From Collinsella sp. AK_207A (GTDB taxonomy: Bacteria > Actinomycetota > Coriobacteriia > Coriobacteriales > Coriobacteriaceae): a stretch of 64,000 nt of DNA. The notes below the pieces were generated by a model. The model saw nothing but the letters and a program-made list of their open reading frames with translations, did not search any database and was not told the origin of the DNA. The stretch covers positions 1-64,000 of the forward strand of contig NZ_CABWID010000020.1 of NCBI RefSeq assembly GCF_902501965.1, read 5' to 3'. Positions within the stretch are counted from its first letter, which is position 1, and the number at the start of each line of letters is the position of its first letter. The translations under genes were made by a program, and so were the position numbers. This document shows, piece after piece, positions 285 through 24,180 of this stretch.

Positions 285-968
285 TTACACCTTAGAATCG
301 CGCGATGCAATGATGCGCGGCTTCAGTGTGCGACCCACCGCCACGCGACAGCCACTCGCCATCTCATGGGCGTGGCTTACGAGCTCTTGCTCCTCCCAGT
401 CCTCTAAACCCATGATGGACATAGATACCATCAGATCGGCCTCAAGAACCTCGGCGATGTCCTTCCCCTCGAGATAGCCGGTATCGATGCAGCGAACGAT
501 CTCGTTGAACACACCCTGCGACAGCGCGACGGCAATATGAACGCGCGATTGCGTATACTCGCCGCCGCGCGAAGAAAAGATGCGCTCAATCTGTTCGTGT
601 TGGACGCGCACCTCTTCATCGGAGGCCTGCGGATACCGAAGGATATCGACGTAGAACCGACGCATATTCGCATTACGATACAAAAGATCGACCAGTAGGT
701 ATTCCAACAGGCAGTAGCCAAGGGCAGGGTCATCGACAGGAAAGCGCCGAGCAACAGCAACCCGAAGCGCGGTAACGTACTCGCGATAGATGGCGGCCAC
801 CAGCCCCCCGCGGTCACCAAAATGGTAGCTCACCAGTCCGCGCTGAACACCGGCCTCGCGGCAGACGGCAGAGTCCGACACGCCATCGACGCCATTGTCA
901 TAGAATAGCCTGCGCGCCGCGTTCTTGATGCTCTCCTTCGTGGCATCTCCCGCCGCATAGGATCCCAC
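285..968 (-). CDS. TetR/AcrR family transcriptional regulator
   Basis: This 227-aa protein has a TetR-type N-terminal helix-turn-helix (about residues 10-57, with the SYHFGDRGGL recognition-helix region) and a long alpha-helical ligand and dimer domain. Such proteins repress nearby genes and release DNA when a small ligand binds. It lies downstream of, and on the same strand as, the half-transporter and amidohydrolase genes, so that set is its likely target. A GC-rich hairpin separates it from the gene at 1090-1542, so it may also have its own promoter. The ligand is unknown. The ATG at 968 follows an AAAGGGGG ribosome-binding sequence. Confidence 0.85.
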   Translation of the reverse strand: MGSYAAGDATKESIKNAARRLFYDNGVDGVSDSAVCREAGVQRGLVSYHFGDRGGLVAAIYREYVTALRVAVARRFPVDDPALGYCLLEYLLVDLLYRNANMRRFYVDILRYPQASDEEVRVQHEQIERIFSSRGGEYTQSRVHIAVALSQGVFNEIVRCIDTGYLEGKDIAEVLEADLMVSMSIMGLEDWEEQELVSHAHEMASGCRVAVGRTLKPRIIASRDSKV

Positions 969-997
969 GGATCCCCCTTTCGCTCTTTACACACAAA

Positions 998-1030
998 GGG
1001 ACGGGGAAGCCTTACAGAATCCCCGTCCCC
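998..1030 (-). terminator. Hairpin between half-transporter gene and TetR gene
   Basis: GGGACGGGGA and TCCCCGTCCC form a 10-bp stem around a 12-nt loop. On the minus strand it follows the stop of the 1090-1542 gene; only a weak T-rich stretch (CCCTTTGTGTG) comes after it, so it may terminate partially. Confidence 0.55.
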
Positions 1031-1089
1031 TCGGTCATGCACGCCCCCATCCTAACAGATTCCCGGGGTCGGCATGTTTTCTCTCTCGC

Positions 1090-18499: not shown

Positions 18500-19462
18500 C
18501 TAGGACGCCTGCTCCGCGCGCCAACGATGCGCGGTCTCGGCAAAATGCACCTCGTTGCAGAGCAGCTCGTGGCGCACGGCCTCGTAGCCATGCTCGCGCC
18601 CAAGCTTCACGATGTAGCCGTTGATGTAATCCACCTCGGTGGGACGGCCCTTGAACATGTCCTGGCACATGCTGGGATAGTGGTACTTGAGGTCGACGAA
18701 GCTCTGCATAATGGCGTCAACCTCCTGCTCACGGCTGATGCCGAGGTCGATGCCCGCGAGCTCGCAGACGTCGAAGCCCTCGTTCACCAGCTGCGTGCAA
18801 ACGTGGCGCATATGCTCGTCCGCGCCGATCGGGCCCATCTGGATCTCGAACATGGTGCAGAGCGTGTTGCAGACGGAATTGAGCATGACCTTCGCCATGG
18901 ACATGCTCATGATGTCGGGGCTCCACTCCGGACCGAGCTTTGCCGCGGTGAAGTCGGCGAACAGCTCGTCGCCCTTCGCGGTGCGCTCGTTGTCGTAGGC
19001 GCACACGTGCATGTACTCCTTACCGAGGGCACCCATGAAGTCCACGTCGCCGGGACCGGGCAGCACGGTGGCGATGACGGCCGTGCCGCCGAAGAGGTGC
19101 GCAGGATCGAAGTACTTGAGCAGCTTCTCGTAGTGCCCCATGCCGTTCATGGCGGTAAAGCAGAGCTGGCCCTTCTTGAAGAGCGGGGCGCAACGCTCGA
19201 GCATGCCGTCGAGCTGCATCTGCTTCATGAAGACGATCCAGCAATCGGGCTTGCCCGTGTACTCCTCGGGATAGTAGACGTCGATGGGCACCAGATGGCG
19301 GTTCTCGTGGTCGCGGGCAACGTAGACGCCGCCCTGCTCGCGAATCTTCTCGACGTTGGGCTTCCAGGTATCGATGAAGTCGACGTCCTTGCCCGCGTAC
19401 TCCTTCAGGTGCACGCCATAGCGAAGGCCCATAGCACCGGCACCGATCACCGCGTATTTCAT
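18500..19462 (-). CDS. Ketopantoate reductase (PanE/ApbA) family protein
   Basis: A 320-aa NAD(P)H-dependent 2-keto acid reductase. The N-terminal Rossmann motif is VIGAGAMGLRYG; the catalytic Lys lies in SMAKVMLNSV, and the C-terminal substrate block is YHYPSMCQDMFKGRPTEVDY. The best-known member makes pantoate, but relatives reduce other branched 2-keto acids, so I do not assign panE firmly. AGGAAAG-type ribosome-binding site before ATG 19462. It lies downstream of the hydratase gene with a strong hairpin between, so it is probably transcribed separately. Confidence 0.8.
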   Translation of the reverse strand: MKYAVIGAGAMGLRYGVHLKEYAGKDVDFIDTWKPNVEKIREQGGVYVARDHENRHLVPIDVYYPEEYTGKPDCWIVFMKQMQLDGMLERCAPLFKKGQLCFTAMNGMGHYEKLLKYFDPAHLFGGTAVIATVLPGPGDVDFMGALGKEYMHVCAYDNERTAKGDELFADFTAAKLGPEWSPDIMSMSMAKVMLNSVCNTLCTMFEIQMGPIGADEHMRHVCTQLVNEGFDVCELAGIDLGISREQEVDAIMQSFVDLKYHYPSMCQDMFKGRPTEVDYINGYIVKLGREHGYEAVRHELLCNEVHFAETAHRWRAEQAS

Positions 19463-19617
19463 GCGATCTTCCTTTCTCGTACAAAACAGAGGGCTGCGTC
19501 GCGAACGGCGCAGTCCTCATCATATTCCCGTTTGGTGTTTGCCCTATGGCGGGACCAACCAGCAGCTACTCCTTCCGAGCGCGCAGCAAGTACACAGGCG
19601 CGCAGGCGCAAGCAAAA

Positions 19618-19662
19618 GCCCCATGGCCCCAAACCTACCTACTGCGTTTGGGGCCATGGGGC
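19618..19662 (-). terminator. Strong hairpin terminator after hydratase gene
   Basis: GCCCCATGGCCCCAAAC and GTTTGGGGCCATGGGGC form a perfect 17-bp stem; on the minus strand TTTTGCTT follows. It ends the hydratase transcript. Confidence 0.85.
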
Positions 19663-19696
19663 GCATCATCGGCGCGAATGGATGCTGCCGAGAAGG

Positions 19697-20500
19697 CTAC
19701 TCAGCCGTGACCTCGAAGCTGCCGAACGGGCCGTCGAACTCGACCTTCCACGTGCCCTTGGTGAGGTGCACGGGCACGAAGACGGTGCCCACGGAGGCGC
19801 GCATACCGGCGGTGAACTTCTTGCCCTGGCTCTCCAGCTTGCCCACGAGCCACTGGAGCGACTTCACCGGGTTACCGAGGATCTCGGACGTATCCCCCTC
19901 CTTCACGAACTCGCCGTCGTGGAAGCACTTGGCGTGATAGCCCGCGAGACCGTCCACGGTGAGCTCGGAGCCGTCCACCTCCTTGCCGTACACCACGCAG
20001 CCGCCCACGGCGCAGTCGGAGACGACCAGATACTTGGGCAGCGTGGGGAACCAGTCATTAAAGCGGGCGTCGGGCACCTCCATATCGCCGGCAACGGTGC
20101 ACTTGGCGAGCAGCTGCTCCAGCGTGTCCTCGGCGGAGAGGTCCTCCTTGGCCTTGAAGCAGAACTCCACCTCCACCAGCGGCTCGTTCAGACGGCCCAG
20201 GTCCACGGTGTAGGGCGCGGCGTGGAAGCGCTCGGCGAGCTGGGCGCCGTAGAGCGGGCAGTCGGACTCGAACATCTTCTGGGTCTCCTCGCTGGTGAGC
20301 GAGACCTTGTAGCCGCCCACCGCCTTGCCCTTGCTCGCCATGACCTTGTCCTGCACGGCGTAGGCAACCTCGACGTCATCCACGGCATCGGTCCAATCCG
20401 CCATGGTGAGGGGCTCGTTCTCGCCCGCATCGTTCTTGGCATAGGCGTGGTAGAGGGCCTCGGCGAGCTCGTTCTGGCGCGGGGTGAGGGTGAAAGACAT
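19697..20500 (-). CDS. MhpD-like 2-keto-4-pentenoate hydratase / FAH superfamily protein
   Basis: A 267-aa cytosolic protein of the fumarylacetoacetate hydrolase superfamily, hydratase branch. VGGYKVSLTS near residue 55 and VEVEFCFKAKEDL near 110 carry the acidic Mg2+ ligands, and the length matches MhpD-type enzymes. These hydrate 2-hydroxydienoates or decarboxylate 2-oxo acids; no aromatic ring-cleavage genes lie nearby, so the true substrate is open. The start at 20500 has AAAGGAAG. It sits behind an Ile-rich leader peptide and an intrinsic terminator, so expression is probably set by attenuation. Confidence 0.75.
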   Translation of the reverse strand: MSFTLTPRQNELAEALYHAYAKNDAGENEPLTMADWTDAVDDVEVAYAVQDKVMASKGKAVGGYKVSLTSEETQKMFESDCPLYGAQLAERFHAAPYTVDLGRLNEPLVEVEFCFKAKEDLSAEDTLEQLLAKCTVAGDMEVPDARFNDWFPTLPKYLVVSDCAVGGCVVYGKEVDGSELTVDGLAGYHAKCFHDGEFVKEGDTSEILGNPVKSLQWLVGKLESQGKKFTAGMRASVGTVFVPVHLTKGTWKVEFDGPFGSFEVTAE

Positions 20501-20542
20501 GATGTGCTTCCTTTCGTGTTCGGAGAGAACCTCGGCGCGAAT

Positions 20543-20579
20543 AAAAAACCCGGGAGCCGCAGTCGCGACCCCCGGGTTT
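20543..20579 (-). terminator. Leader terminator (attenuator) of the hydratase gene
   Basis: On the minus strand AAACCCGGG pairs with CCCGGGTTT and is followed by a six-T run. It lies between the leader peptide stop and the hydratase start, so transcription must pass it to reach the gene. Just before it two shorter hairpins share a segment (20599-20627 and 20588-20605) and cannot form together, as in translation-coupled attenuators. Confidence 0.85.
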
Positions 20580-20628
20580 CGATGGCCGCTCGCAAAGAAG
20601 CGAGCTGCCAAACATCTGCAGCTCGCTG

Positions 20629-20670
20629 CTAGCTGATAATGCTCGCAATGTTGATGCAGATGGTGCGCAT
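20629..20670 (-). CDS. Ile-rich leader peptide (13 aa)
   Basis: Reads MRTICINIASIIS followed by TAG: five Ile in thirteen residues, two of them adjacent. GGGGGAG lies about seven bases before the ATG at 20670. The stop codon abuts a 10-bp stem (AGCGAGCTGC/GCAGCTCGCT) that begins a set of alternative hairpins ending in an intrinsic terminator. This is the layout of amino-acid attenuators such as those of ilv and trp operons: ribosome stalling at Ile codons would change the fold and let transcription continue into the hydratase gene. Confidence 0.75.
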   Translation of the reverse strand: MRTICINIASIIS

Positions 20671-20724
20671 GAGATACTCCCCCGTTTTGGAGCCGCGGTA
20701 GCGGTTCCCTTGTAGGACGCGACA

Positions 20725-20754
20725 TAGTTTTGCGCTTTAGCAAAGTGAAGTCAA
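20725..20754 (-). promoter_or_regulatory. Probable sigma-70 type promoter of the leader/hydratase transcript
   Basis: On the minus strand TTGACT (20749-20754) is followed after 18-19 bases by AAACTAT (20724-20730). The start point would fall near 20717, leaving about 45 nt before the leader peptide. Confidence 0.5.
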
Positions 20755-20813
20755 CCTGATTTGTTTCCGTTCGGTGACATAGCAGGTAGAGCTAATGAAG
20801 CACTTGGTTCTGG

Positions 20814-21650
20814 TTAGATCTCCATGTTGAAGCAGCCCGCCTGGTCCAAGCTGTTGAAGGCAAGGGGCCGCCCCGCCCGATGAAGGCCGCGCGCCATGCC
20901 CGCCTCGTCTACCAAGGCGGCGAAGATCGTCCCCATCTGCTCCCGGCCGGGGAAGAACTCGGGATGCCACTGCACGCCGACCATGAAGGAGCGCTCAGGC
21001 GCCTCGATGCCCTCGATGAGCCCGTCGGGACTGTACGCGCTCGCAACCAGCAACGGGCTCAGACGCCGCACACCCTGATGGTGCATGGAGTTCACCTCGA
21101 GCACATCCGTGTGAAGGGCACGGTAGAGCCGGGTGCCGTGCTCCAGCCGCACCGTGTGGATGGACGTGCCAAAGTCGGCGGGCTGCGCATGCGTGATGCC
21201 GATAGGCGAACCCGAGACGGGCTGGAACTGGTCGCGCAGGTCCAGGTAGAGCGTACCGCCCAGAAAGACGTTCAGCATCTGCATACCGCGGCAGATGCCG
21301 AGCACCGGCAGGTCGTTCGCGAAAGCATAGGCGAGCACGAGCCGCTCGATGGCGTCGCGGCGGGGCGTGAGGAACGAAAGCTTCTCGTACTCGGCGTCCT
21401 CACCATACTGGGCAGGGTCCACGTCGTTGCCGCCGGAGAGCAGAAAGCCGTCCATCAGGGGCAGGACCGTGCGAAAGACCTCGATGTCATCGACGAGCGG
21501 GAGCATGACGGGGGCGCCGCCCATCGCGGCGATGGCGTTCTCGTAGCGTCCGGCCACGTGGAGCGCGCCATCGTCCGGCCTAAGCGAGGGCATGATGCCG
21601 ATCAGGGGGCGATGCCCTACCTCCTGCATCTGTTGCTCCTCGCGCTTCAT
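20814..21650 (-). CDS. Class I glutamine amidotransferase-like (C26) gamma-glutamyl hydrolase
   Basis: A 278-aa PuuD-type hydrolase. The nucleophile elbow is LGICRGMQ near residue 110 and the catalytic His/Glu pair is in WHPEFF near 240; LSGGNDVDP near 75 is the usual oxyanion-side block. Such enzymes release gamma-linked glutamate, for instance from gamma-glutamyl-GABA. No putrescine pathway genes lie beside it, so the substrate is uncertain. Two starts are possible: ATG 21650 (GGAGGGGG upstream) or a Met seven codons later (GAGGAG upstream). Confidence 0.85.
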   Translation of the reverse strand: MKREEQQMQEVGHRPLIGIMPSLRPDDGALHVAGRYENAIAAMGGAPVMLPLVDDIEVFRTVLPLMDGFLLSGGNDVDPAQYGEDAEYEKLSFLTPRRDAIERLVLAYAFANDLPVLGICRGMQMLNVFLGGTLYLDLRDQFQPVSGSPIGITHAQPADFGTSIHTVRLEHGTRLYRALHTDVLEVNSMHHQGVRRLSPLLVASAYSPDGLIEGIEAPERSFMVGVQWHPEFFPGREQMGTIFAALVDEAGMARGLHRAGRPLAFNSLDQAGCFNMEI

Positions 21651-21760
21651 GGGCCATCCCCCTCCGAGTTCCCGCGAACCGTTGGCGTGTGAGTATAGCC
21701 CAAACGGCACCCGCTGCGGCAAGCGGTCGGGTTCGGCCGGAAGCGTGCGGGCACGCCATC

Positions 21761-23341
21761 CTAGTCCTGATCGTCTCCCACCTCGTAGCTATCGGCGGGA
21801 ACCGCATCCGATCCGTCCGCGGGCTCCACCGCCTCGGGATGCTCGGCGGCCGCTGCCTGCTCGCGCGCCTCGTCGAACTTGGCCTTCATGGTCTTGTTAC
21901 CCCAAGTGAGCCGGCGAATGGTGAGGTCATCTGCCTTGTCGTTCGCCAACCTAAGCTGGTTCTCGGAAGAGACGAGCGCGGCCTTGACCTTTTCCAGATG
22001 ACGGATCGTGGTGTCGATCTCGCTGATGGCCTCGTTGAACTTCTTGCTCGCCGTGGCGTAGTTCTTGGCGAAGCCGGTCTTGAAGTCCTCCATCTTACGC
22101 TCGAAGTTCGTGACGTCGATGTTCTGCTGGCGCATGGCCACGAGCTCCTGCTTGTACGCGAGCGTGCCCAGGGCCGCGTTGCGCAGCAGGGTGATCATGG
22201 GGATGAAGAACTGCGGACGGATGACGTACATCTTGGGGTAGCGGTAGCTCACGTCCACGATGCCCTGGTTGTAGAGCTCGCTCTCCGGCTCGAGCAGCGT
22301 GACCAGCACCGCATACTCGCAGCCCTTGGCGGTGCGGTCGTGATCGAGCTTCTTGAAGAAGTCCTCGTTCTTGTGCTTGGTCGCCGTGGTGTCGTTCTCG
22401 TTCTTCATCTCGAACATGATGGAGATGACCTCGGCGCCGTCGCGCTCCTCGCGGAAGATGAAGTCGCCCTTGCTGCCCTCGCTCGCGTCGTTGTCCTTCT
22501 CAAAGTACGCATTGGGGAACGCCGTCATACGCAGGCGGTTGAACTCCGTCTCGCAGTGCTGCTCGAGCGTCTCGCCCACCATCTTGGTGGAAAGGCGAAC
22601 CTTCATGTCGCGCAGGCGTTCGATCTCCTCGTCCTTGTAGCGGATGAGCTCGTCGCTCGCCTTCTTGGCCTGCTCGAGCTCGAGGGCGTGGCTCGCCGCG
22701 GTCTCCTGCTCGCGCGCCGTGCGCACGGCGATCTCTTGCGCGAGCTTGGAGCGCGCCTCGTCGCGCTCGTGCTCGGCGGCGGCCACGGCGCGCACGCGGG
22801 CGGCCTCCGCGACGCTCTCCTGCTCGCGCAGCTTGAGGCGTAGCTCGTCCGCTTGCCGACGCGCTTCCTCCGCGCGCTCGCGCTCCTCCTGGCGGGCCTC
22901 GAGCACCGTCTTCTCCATGGCGGTACGGAACTCGTTGTCGGCGGCGTCGAGCTGGGCCTTGAGCGCGGCGATCTGGGTATCGCGGGCGGCGAGGTCAGCC
23001 TGGAGCTGCTGCTTGGTCTCGGCAGCGGCTTTCTCGCCCGTAAGGTCGCGCTCGCGCTCGGCGGCATCGAGCCGGGCGGTGAGCTCGGCGATCTTCTGGT
23101 CCCGCGTGGCGGTTGCATCCTTGAGTTCGCGCTCCGCATCCGCCGCGGCCCGCTGGGCGCTCTCTCGCGCGGCGGCGCGGGCGAGCTCGAGCGCCTGCTC
23201 CTTCTCGAGCTTCATATGCTCCTCGCGCTCGTGCAGCTGGCGCGCGAACTCACGGTCGCGGACCTGCTTGGCAATGTCTGCATAGCCGGATTCATCCACC
23301 TGGAACACCTGACCGCAGTGGGGGCATTTAATCTCGTTCAT
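21761..23341 (-). CDS. DUF2130 family coiled-coil protein
   Basis: A 526-aa soluble protein. Residues 1-15 hold a CPHCGQ half zinc-ribbon; about 25-255 is an unbroken coiled coil rich in Ala, Glu and Arg; about 260-440 is the conserved DUF2130 domain ([43 protein letters not shown]), which has the pattern of a restriction-like nuclease fold; the tail is coiled again and acidic. The function of the family is not established; genome maintenance is a guess. AAAGGAAG precedes ATG 23341. Confidence 0.85.
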
Positions 23342-23414
23342 AGAAGCTTCCTTTCAAGCGGCGTTCGTCGCGCAATCCGTATTGGGCAAGCATAACCCCT
23401 CGCACGGACACACA

Positions 23415-23437
23415 GGGGCGCGTCGAAGCGGCGCCCC
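23415..23437 (-). terminator. Hairpin after rsmJ
   Basis: GGGGCGC and GCGCCCC pair around a 9-nt loop between the rsmJ stop and the DUF2130 start region. GC-rich, with no T-tract. Confidence 0.4.
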
Positions 23438-23496
23438 ACGACGGCGCGTTGCTGGACCGGTTCGGCGCCGCCGGGGCGGGAGCTGCGCTGCGGGAG

Positions 23497-24180
23497 CTAG
23501 CAGCACGGTGCGGGCACGATGACGTCGTAGCGCACGGCCTTGCCGGCAACGCTATGACTCGGCTTGACGTTTGCCAGATACGGACCCTTGACCGGGCGTT
23601 TCACCACCACCTTGCGCGGACGGGCGGCGATGGCGGCGGCGAGCAGCTCCTCCCCCTCGCTATCCTCGCACGGCCGCTCCAGGCGGTGGAGCAGCTGGAA
23701 CTTCTTCTTCACCGCCGCGCTCTTTCGGCGCTCGGGGAACATCGGGTCCAGATAGACGACGTCGGGCGGCGTGGCGAGGGCGCGCAGGGCCTCGATGCTA
23801 TCGCCCGCGCGCACGTGCATACGGGCGGCGATATCGGCGAGGTCCGGATCATCGAGCGCGCGGGCGAGCGCGTCTTCCAGCAGAGCGGCGATCACCGGGT
23901 CGCGCTCGCGCAGCGTCACCTCAAAGCCGGCTGCGGCGAGCAAAAATGAGTCCTCCCCCAAGCCCGCCGTGGCGTCCATGCATGTTGGTGCCCCCTCCAG
24001 GCTACGTACCCGCGCCGCACGGACCAGCAGCTCGCGACCAAGGCGGTTCCGCCGAACGCGCGGCAGCATCTCGCGAAAATCCTGACGAAGCTCCATGCCA
24101 GACCCCGCGAGCGTCAGACCGTCTTGCTCGCGTCGGAGCTCCAAGCCTTCTGGCAGGTCAAAGCCACTATCGTTCTGCAT
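23497..24180 (-). CDS. rsmJ: RsmJ-type 16S rRNA guanine-N2 methyltransferase
   Basis: A 227-aa class I SAM-dependent methyltransferase. The SAM motif is DATAGLGEDSFLLA (about 69-82) and the family block VYLDPMFPERRKSAAVKKK follows near 145. In E. coli RsmJ methylates a guanosine near the 3' end of 16S rRNA; the same role is likely here. A GGGGGC site precedes ATG 24180. The ThpR remnant lies just upstream on the same strand. Confidence 0.85.
   Translation of the reverse strand: MQNDSGFDLPEGLELRREQDGLTLAGSGMELRQDFREMLPRVRRNRLGRELLVRAARVRSLEGAPTCMDATAGLGEDSFLLAAAGFEVTLRERDPVIAALLEDALARALDDPDLADIAARMHVRAGDSIEALRALATPPDVVYLDPMFPERRKSAAVKKKFQLLHRLERPCEDSEGEELLAAAIAARPRKVVVKRPVKGPYLANVKPSHSVAGKAVRYDVIVPAPCC

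Follow-up and report, generated by a model that had tools for sequence, protein, structure and literature searches.

Folding, profile searches and comparison of orthologs point to a ribosome-mediated transcription attenuator in front of an MhpD-like hydratase gene in the window, by which we mean the whole 64,000-nucleotide stretch of Collinsella DNA analyzed here. The attenuator would sense charged Ile-tRNA and turn the hydratase on when isoleucine is scarce, a reading to which we assign a probability of about 0.9. It is built on computation: the parts of the leader, their alternative pairings, a pairing order that recurs in leaders of diverged sequence, and sensors at orthologs that are specific for Ile. 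Control of the hydratase by isoleucine is very likely, and it is likewise very likely, or in a more cautious wording probable, that the enzyme serves isoleucine supply. The RNA switch is of a known kind; the hydratase as its target is the unexpected part.

One gene is here found with two unrelated designs of Ile sensor, a tRNA-binding T-box and a translated leader peptide, which have seemingly been exchanged in evolution. This provides a natural case in which an RNA mechanism was exchanged at one gene and then apparently moved with the gene to another lineage, and it turns an uncharacterized enzyme into a testable hypothesis on isoleucine supply in lactic acid bacteria. No Ile control of this hydratase is reported in the literature titles and abstracts listed. 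Table 2 of PMC2494555 gives L. acidophilus LBA1071 as an "Ile related hypothetical" T-box protein, and a published table may already contain the T-box half of the result.

Leader region of the hydratase gene

The region has the parts of an attenuator: an ORF with Ile codons and a ribosome-binding site, predicted to be translated, close to hairpins; a terminator between this ORF and the gene; an antiterminator and a terminator that exclude each other, as computed for the window; and an arrangement that is kept in relatives with changed sequence (Table 1). The ribosome-binding site, the 13-codon Ile-rich peptide, the terminator with its run of six T and then the gene follow one another on the reverse strand just as the original prediction had it. 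The promoter that it also named stands less firmly. TTGACT is present at 20754-20749 (-), but AACTAT is reachable only at 19-nt spacing, and a consensus promoter scan of 19500-23500 lists no promoter because this spacing is poor. The leader terminator is absent from the same consensus scan as well, probably because its stem extends into the U-run. From the end of the six-U run to the hydratase ATG (20500) there are 42 nt.

Table 1 Features of the hydratase leader and the genes downstream of it (window coordinates)
Feature	Coordinates	Strand	Basis
Promoter-like TTGACT ... AACTAT, 19-nt spacer, weak	20724..20754	-	read from sequence
Ribosome-binding site GGGGGAG of leader peptide, 6 bases before ATG	20677..20683	-	sequence
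Leader peptide ORF MRTICINIASIIS, ATG 20670 to TAG 20629	20629..20670	-	sequence
Segment 0, CAUCUGCA; partner in free RNA UGCAGAUG, 20620-20613	20655..20662	-	MFE fold
Segment A, AGCGAGCUGC, directly 3' of stop codon; partner B	20618..20627	-	folds
Segment B, GGCAGCUCGCU; partner A or C	20599..20609	-	folds
Segment C, GCGAGCGGCC; partner B, or D as antiterminator	20584..20593	-	folds
Segment D, terminator arm 1	20565..20580	-	folds
Segment E, terminator arm 2 (20560-20545) and six-U run (20548-20543)	20543..20560	-	sequence, fold
MhpD-like hydratase, FAH fold, 267 aa	19697..20500	-	profile search, alignment, predicted structure
17-bp hairpin followed by UUUU, likely terminator, 3' of hydratase	19614..19662	-	sequence, fold
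PanE-like ketopantoate reductase family protein	18500..19462	-	Pfam ApbA, ApbA_C and TIGR00745 over cut-off

Isoleucine takes up 5 of the 13 codons of MRTICINIASIIS, in the order AUC, AUC, AUU, AUU, AUC. Counting nested starts on both strands, the window has 1,087 short ORFs (8-25 codons), and none but this one has five or more Ile residues and an Ile share of 30% or more. The folding energy of the leader, taken as 20725-20501 (-), lies at z -6.9 relative to 200 shuffles, none of which folds as well (0/200). The G+C content of the window ranges from 57 to 76% across 4-kb blocks. An Rfam search of the window returned no match to an RNA family, including a T-box at gathering score, and at the leader-peptide loci (15 sources searched) Rfam gave nothing except nearby tRNAs. 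A DNA-similarity search of the genome found no further copy of the hydratase attenuator. The gene upstream of the leader, at 20814-21722 (-), encodes a Peptidase_C26 protein of the gamma-glutamyl-GABA hydrolase type.

Alternative pairings and the proposed switch

The helices that folding allows in the window leader are 0:A, A:B, B:C, C:D and D:E. Where the original prediction saw two hairpins that exclude each other, the alternatives are indeed exclusive, but the folds give a chain of alternative helices in place of two hairpins. The free RNA is predicted to form 0:A, B:C and D:E. In the nascent fold just before E has been made, with A free, A:B and C:D appear; on hiding the 10 nt that follow the stop codon (A), B:C appears and D is not paired upstream. 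C:D supplies the antiterminator capturing terminator arm 1 that had earlier been reported missing. Its core pairs 20589-20584 with 20570-20565 (-) and is seen on folding the RNA without terminator arm 2; in all, the window C:D is short, with 6 bp and two 3-bp stretches.

From these pairings we infer the positions of the ribosome, the direction of control and the timing. With Ile-tRNA plentiful, a ribosome that has reached the stop codon would cover A, B:C would form, D:E would follow and transcription would terminate. A ribosome stalled on the Ile codons would leave A free to pair with B, and C:D would then act as antiterminator and permit readthrough into the hydratase. If the window leader is not translated at all it should also terminate, with 0:A, B:C and D:E as in the free RNA. 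The parity of the pairings fits this scheme: a stalled ribosome corresponds to readthrough, a finished one to termination, and an absent one, in the window, to termination.

The chain A:B, B:C, C:D is present in 12 of the 12 leaders tested, which are those of the window, two same-order relatives and nine Lactobacillaceae. When the region from the stop codon to the terminator was shuffled with dinucleotides preserved, the chain score was reached in 0/400 shuffles for eleven leaders and in 1/400 for L088. For the window this test chose a C:D helix (UUGCGA:UCGCGA) different from that of the nascent fold, and it gave an odd C:D in L152. Nascent folding switches cleanly in three of nine leaders folded (window, G205 and L062). 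With A hidden, D is still partly paired upstream in G137; in L153, L152, L093, L174 and L110 it is paired upstream in both nascent states, and L152 with A free does not form A:B. Folded with the full terminator, 8/9 leaders (all except L110) prefer D:E even when A is free, and the switch must accordingly be kinetic. Six Lactobacillaceae leaders have the window pattern of 0:A, B:C and D:E as free RNA, whereas for G137 and G205 A:B and D:E are predicted in place of 0:A and B:C.

A comparison with relatives for covariation and conserved Ile codons, which the original prediction had proposed as a check, came out in part: the Ile codons are kept in two same-order relatives, and covariation is found in the terminator but hardly in the on state. 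Across ten close leaders (alignment A2) the off state has seven covarying pairs, all in the terminator. For the on state (A:B, C:D) covariation is weak, with one compensatory pair and 43/500 shuffles as good, because the ten leaders hardly vary in A, B and C.

Ribosome-mediated attenuators that respond to amino acids are known from the trp, leu and ilv systems, and the his leader is built of six segments. The window leader shares with these the codons of the sensed amino acid, the alternative hairpins and the terminator before the gene, and its pairing order 0:A, A:B, B:C, C:D, D:E matches that of the six-segment his leader. Its target is different, a hydratase instead of a known biosynthetic operon, and the comparison implies no similarity in sequence. 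Closer in base composition are the high-GC leaders of Corynebacterium glutamicum ilvBNC, whose attenuator is described with three hairpins (PMC11857589), and of actinobacterial ilvB (PMC1262725), for which peptides with branched-chain codons and terminators are likewise described. The leaders before ilvB, as presented there, carry codons for Ile, Val and Leu (PMC11857589, PMC1262725). Compared with these accounts, the window leader reads Ile only, has a longer chain and precedes another gene, and at the ilvBNC of its own genome such a leader was not found.

Orthologs in the genus and class

Among the 43 genomes of the genus searched, only the window's own has the hydratase. Matches to it occur in 6 of 396 genomes of the class, and three of these are close (window, G137 and G205). 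The G137 hydratase is 70% identical to that of the window. The G205 gene (L009 2877-3365) is 61% identical over residues 3-149 and is broken, being truncated and having two in-frame TAG codons; its Ile attenuator, with only 3 Ile codons, is still in place before it. The leader peptides are MFNPQDRIITSIIR in G137 (L008) and MRRLFSNTQVIAAIIS in G205 (L009), each followed by a terminator. Both leaders have diverged in sequence and have kept the Ile leader and the pairing order. Six distant MhpD/HpaH-like genes in the window's class (27-29% identity) have neither an Ile-rich ORF nor a T-box within the at most 400 nt upstream that were searched (116 nt at one locus, L050).

Ile sensors at Lactobacillaceae loci

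Of 397 genomes from Lactobacillaceae, the family of Paucilactobacillus kaifaensis (L002), 175 contain the hydratase (E 1e-30). The loci considered are the 150 strongest matches, as listed, from 147 genomes. An Ile sensor is present at 149 of the 150 listed loci: 131 have a T-box and 18 an Ile-rich leader peptide. At the remaining one, L140, neither was recognized, and its arrangement is that of L054, an L. plantarum plasmid likewise without a recognized T-box. At 3700-3990 of L054, the hydratase is preceded by a short ORF, MSDSDISGIINIVKSKIRKWTCQL.

A T-box model built from 59 of these T-boxes matches the 700 nt upstream at 134 of 154 loci (the 150 listed and four named plasmid stretches), compared to 0/154 reversed controls. 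The specifier, read by alignment, is AUC (Ile) in all 134 of these T-boxes (131 at listed loci and three on plasmid stretches). Independent support comes from Rfam (RF00230), which matches 15/30 loci at gathering score and, at E 1e-4, gives seven more T-box matches in a search of 14 loci; the T-box of L002 scores 82 bits, under the gathering score of 93. AUC stands at the same model positions of the Rfam alignments in nine of ten listed and in L002, and the tenth (L035) has an insertion there. Four of 63 T-box "cores" called early on (L052, L054, L055, L088) were false, yet L052 and L053 have real T-boxes. Near the hydratase locus of L036, a TPP riboswitch lies on the opposite strand at 959-1051 (-).

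At 17 of the listed loci without a T-box, an Ile-rich ORF and a U-run stand directly before the hydratase, and the chain of pairings was tested in nine of them. At L102 the Ile-rich ORF heads a two-gene unit of which the hydratase is the last gene.

These loci bear out the predicted control by Ile: the nearest two orthologs keep the Ile leader, and the Lactobacillaceae orthologs have Ile T-boxes or Ile peptides. Relatives that keep the terminator without the peptide had been named as a finding that would speak against it. The T-box relatives are, literally, of that sort, but a different Ile sensor stands where the peptide would be, and they are thus no argument against Ile control. The Lactobacillaceae Ile T-boxes (RF00230) have in common with the window leader the gene family, the amino acid and the logic (on with uncharged tRNA). 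They differ from it in binding the tRNA directly, without a peptide; the window leader is not a T-box.

Evolution of the gene and its sensor

A tree was built from 64 rows. To keep diversity, 40 of the 128 T-box rows were taken, and proteins that are interrupted (three) as well as outgroup loci with no readable ORF (four) were left out. The copies of the window and its two same-order relatives make up a clade (100/97), which is sister to 15 leader-peptide copies. These 18 leader-peptide copies group together (100/99) and nest in a set that also contains T-box copies (98/93). The leader-peptide copies L110 and L119 are placed elsewhere, among T-box copies. The tree needs two changes of sensor type, which suggests that leader peptides probably replaced T-boxes twice. 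The 15 leader-peptide copies may, at a guess, belong to Leuconostoc and Weissella. Most simply, the lineage of the window would have received the gene and its attenuator together, and this is probably what happened.

Fold and possible role of the hydratase

By fold, the assignment of the protein to the FAH superfamily as MhpD-like was right. The predicted model (mean pLDDT 95) matches MhpD, HpcG and NahK over its full length with Z 30-33; for structure 2wqt the values are Z 32.9 and rmsd 1.8 over 252 residues. FAHD1 is a more distant structural match (Z 17). Residues E110, E112 and E141 are invariant in 35 aligned relatives and align with Glu residues of MhpD. The hydratase resembles MhpD, HpaH (HpcG) and the decarboxylase NahK in these respects, but differs from them in regulation and in sequence (~25% identity). 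It also stays below the equivalog cut-offs (TIGR02312, 68.7 vs 351.5 bits; TIGR03220, 62.1 vs 408.8; NF008461, 61.3 vs 350) and is for this reason not called an MhpD.

Ketol-acid reductoisomerase is found in 10 of 20 hand-picked hydratase genomes, including those of the window and G205 and not G137, and no simple tie of the hydratase to Ile prototrophy is seen. In the other ten the ordinary Ile pathway would be closed, unless the drafts are incomplete. Fifteen of the 20 have a branched-chain aminotransferase that scores over its cut-off; five of these fifteen belong to the ten in which no reductoisomerase was found. Salvage of keto or hydroxy acids suggests itself as the simplest role for the enzyme. 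Neither an Ile leader nor a T-box was seen in the ilvBNC region of the window's genome.

A more specific proposal, which we put forward as tentative and on balance doubtful, is that the family carries out an undescribed step of isoleucine supply, available even where reductoisomerase is lacking, and is in its sharpest form a C3-inverting tautomerase of 3-methyl-2-oxopentanoate. FAH-fold enzymes include documented enol-keto tautomerases (PMC10825186) and D-allo-isoleucine is described as made by lactic acid bacteria (PMC6053490), and it is on these two grounds that we infer inversion at C3 of the Ile keto acid. Such an enol-keto tautomerase would lead the 3R keto acid, its 2-hydroxy acid or D-allo-derived material to L-isoleucine, with PanE-like or L-LDH-like 2-hydroxyacid dehydrogenases and a branched-chain aminotransferase as partners. 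Among the branched-chain amino acids only isoleucine has a stereocenter at C3, which would explain why the hydratase sensors read Ile and none reads Leu or Val.

Alternative explanations

If the short ORF were a product of chance and the hairpins a constitutive or upstream terminator, the weak promoter would fit, and hairpins arise easily in high-GC sequence. Yet MRTICINIASIIS is alone of its kind among 1,087 ORFs, the layout is repeated in two same-order orthologs, Ile leader ORFs occur at 18 Lactobacillaceae loci and shuffles rarely match the pairing chain, and we consider chance highly improbable. Only slightly better are the odds for a nascent-chain arrest peptide, or for a general sensor of branched-chain amino acids or ribosome stress, in place of an Ile-tRNA sensor. 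Arrest peptides are also found before alternative hairpins, but the peptides here differ between groups apart from Ile, that of the window has no Leu or Val, and the T-box orthologs read AUC in 134/134. That the window leader is a degenerate T-box is hardly credible: there are T-boxes at orthologs, and GGGAACCGCUACCGCG upstream of the ORF has a faint resemblance to the T-box core motif, but GGGAACCGCUACCGCG stands before both ORF and terminator, and neither the window nor the L001 stretch has an Rfam match at gathering score.

The remaining alternative concerns the enzyme and is the least improbable of them, though still unlikely. The protein could be a 2-oxopent-4-enoate or 2-oxohept-4-enedioate hydratase of the meta-cleavage type, with Ile control incidental, given that MhpD and HpcG/HpaH are its nearest solved structures. 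Its scores, however, are far under the curated equivalog cut-offs (68.7 of 351.5 bits and less), Ile sensors stand at 149/150 listed loci, and its partners are BrnQ, PanE-like and L-LDH-like proteins, though most loci are without a close codirectional partner.

Neighboring genes and the PanE-like reductase

At 20 of the 150 listed loci, the hydratase has a codirectional ORF that starts no more than 130 nt away and is 150 codons or longer, or is truncated by the end of the sequence. These neighbors are nine BrnQ-type transporters (two of them Pfam-checked), five L-LDH-like proteins, two PanE-like proteins and four others. Named plasmids have the orders hydratase-PanE (L. reuteri), permease-hydratase-aminotransferase-PanE (Nicoliella) and MFS-hydratase-L-LDH (L. 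plantarum). Upstream of the Nicoliella aminotransferase (L053, upstream of 5233) there is a weak T-box-like match with AUG, not Ile, in the specifier column. PanE-like genes on Lactobacillaceae plasmids (50-57% identity) match the T-box model in 3 of 4 cases examined. Among L186, L187 and L188, the one readable specifier is GUA (Val; L188, upstream of 2998), which points to a link of the plasmid PanE-like genes to branched-chain amino acids.

In the window, the predicted link between hydratase and PanE-like gene is not reflected in operon structure. The two are separated by a 234-nt gap with the 17-bp hairpin and UUUU of Table 1 in it, which a pattern scan does not list, and a second G+C-rich hairpin is seen just before the PanE start; with hairpins between them, PanE may be a separate unit. 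The link gains support from another place in the genome. At E 1e-40 the window's type of PanE is found in 1/395 genomes of the order, the window's own, in two copies. The paralog (L183, G000:C6:3974-4912) is 57% identical to the PanE-like protein of the window, and examination of its upstream region, not DNA similarity, revealed an Ile attenuator of its own. The peptide there, MLSIRAIKIIGIIEII, has 8 Ile of 16 residues, with the leader ATG at ~C6:5147, and the leader contains the chain A:B, B:C, C:D at a score that 0/400 shuffles reach. This one genome, the ilvBNC region of which shows no such attenuator, has two genes of this module kind behind separate Ile attenuators.
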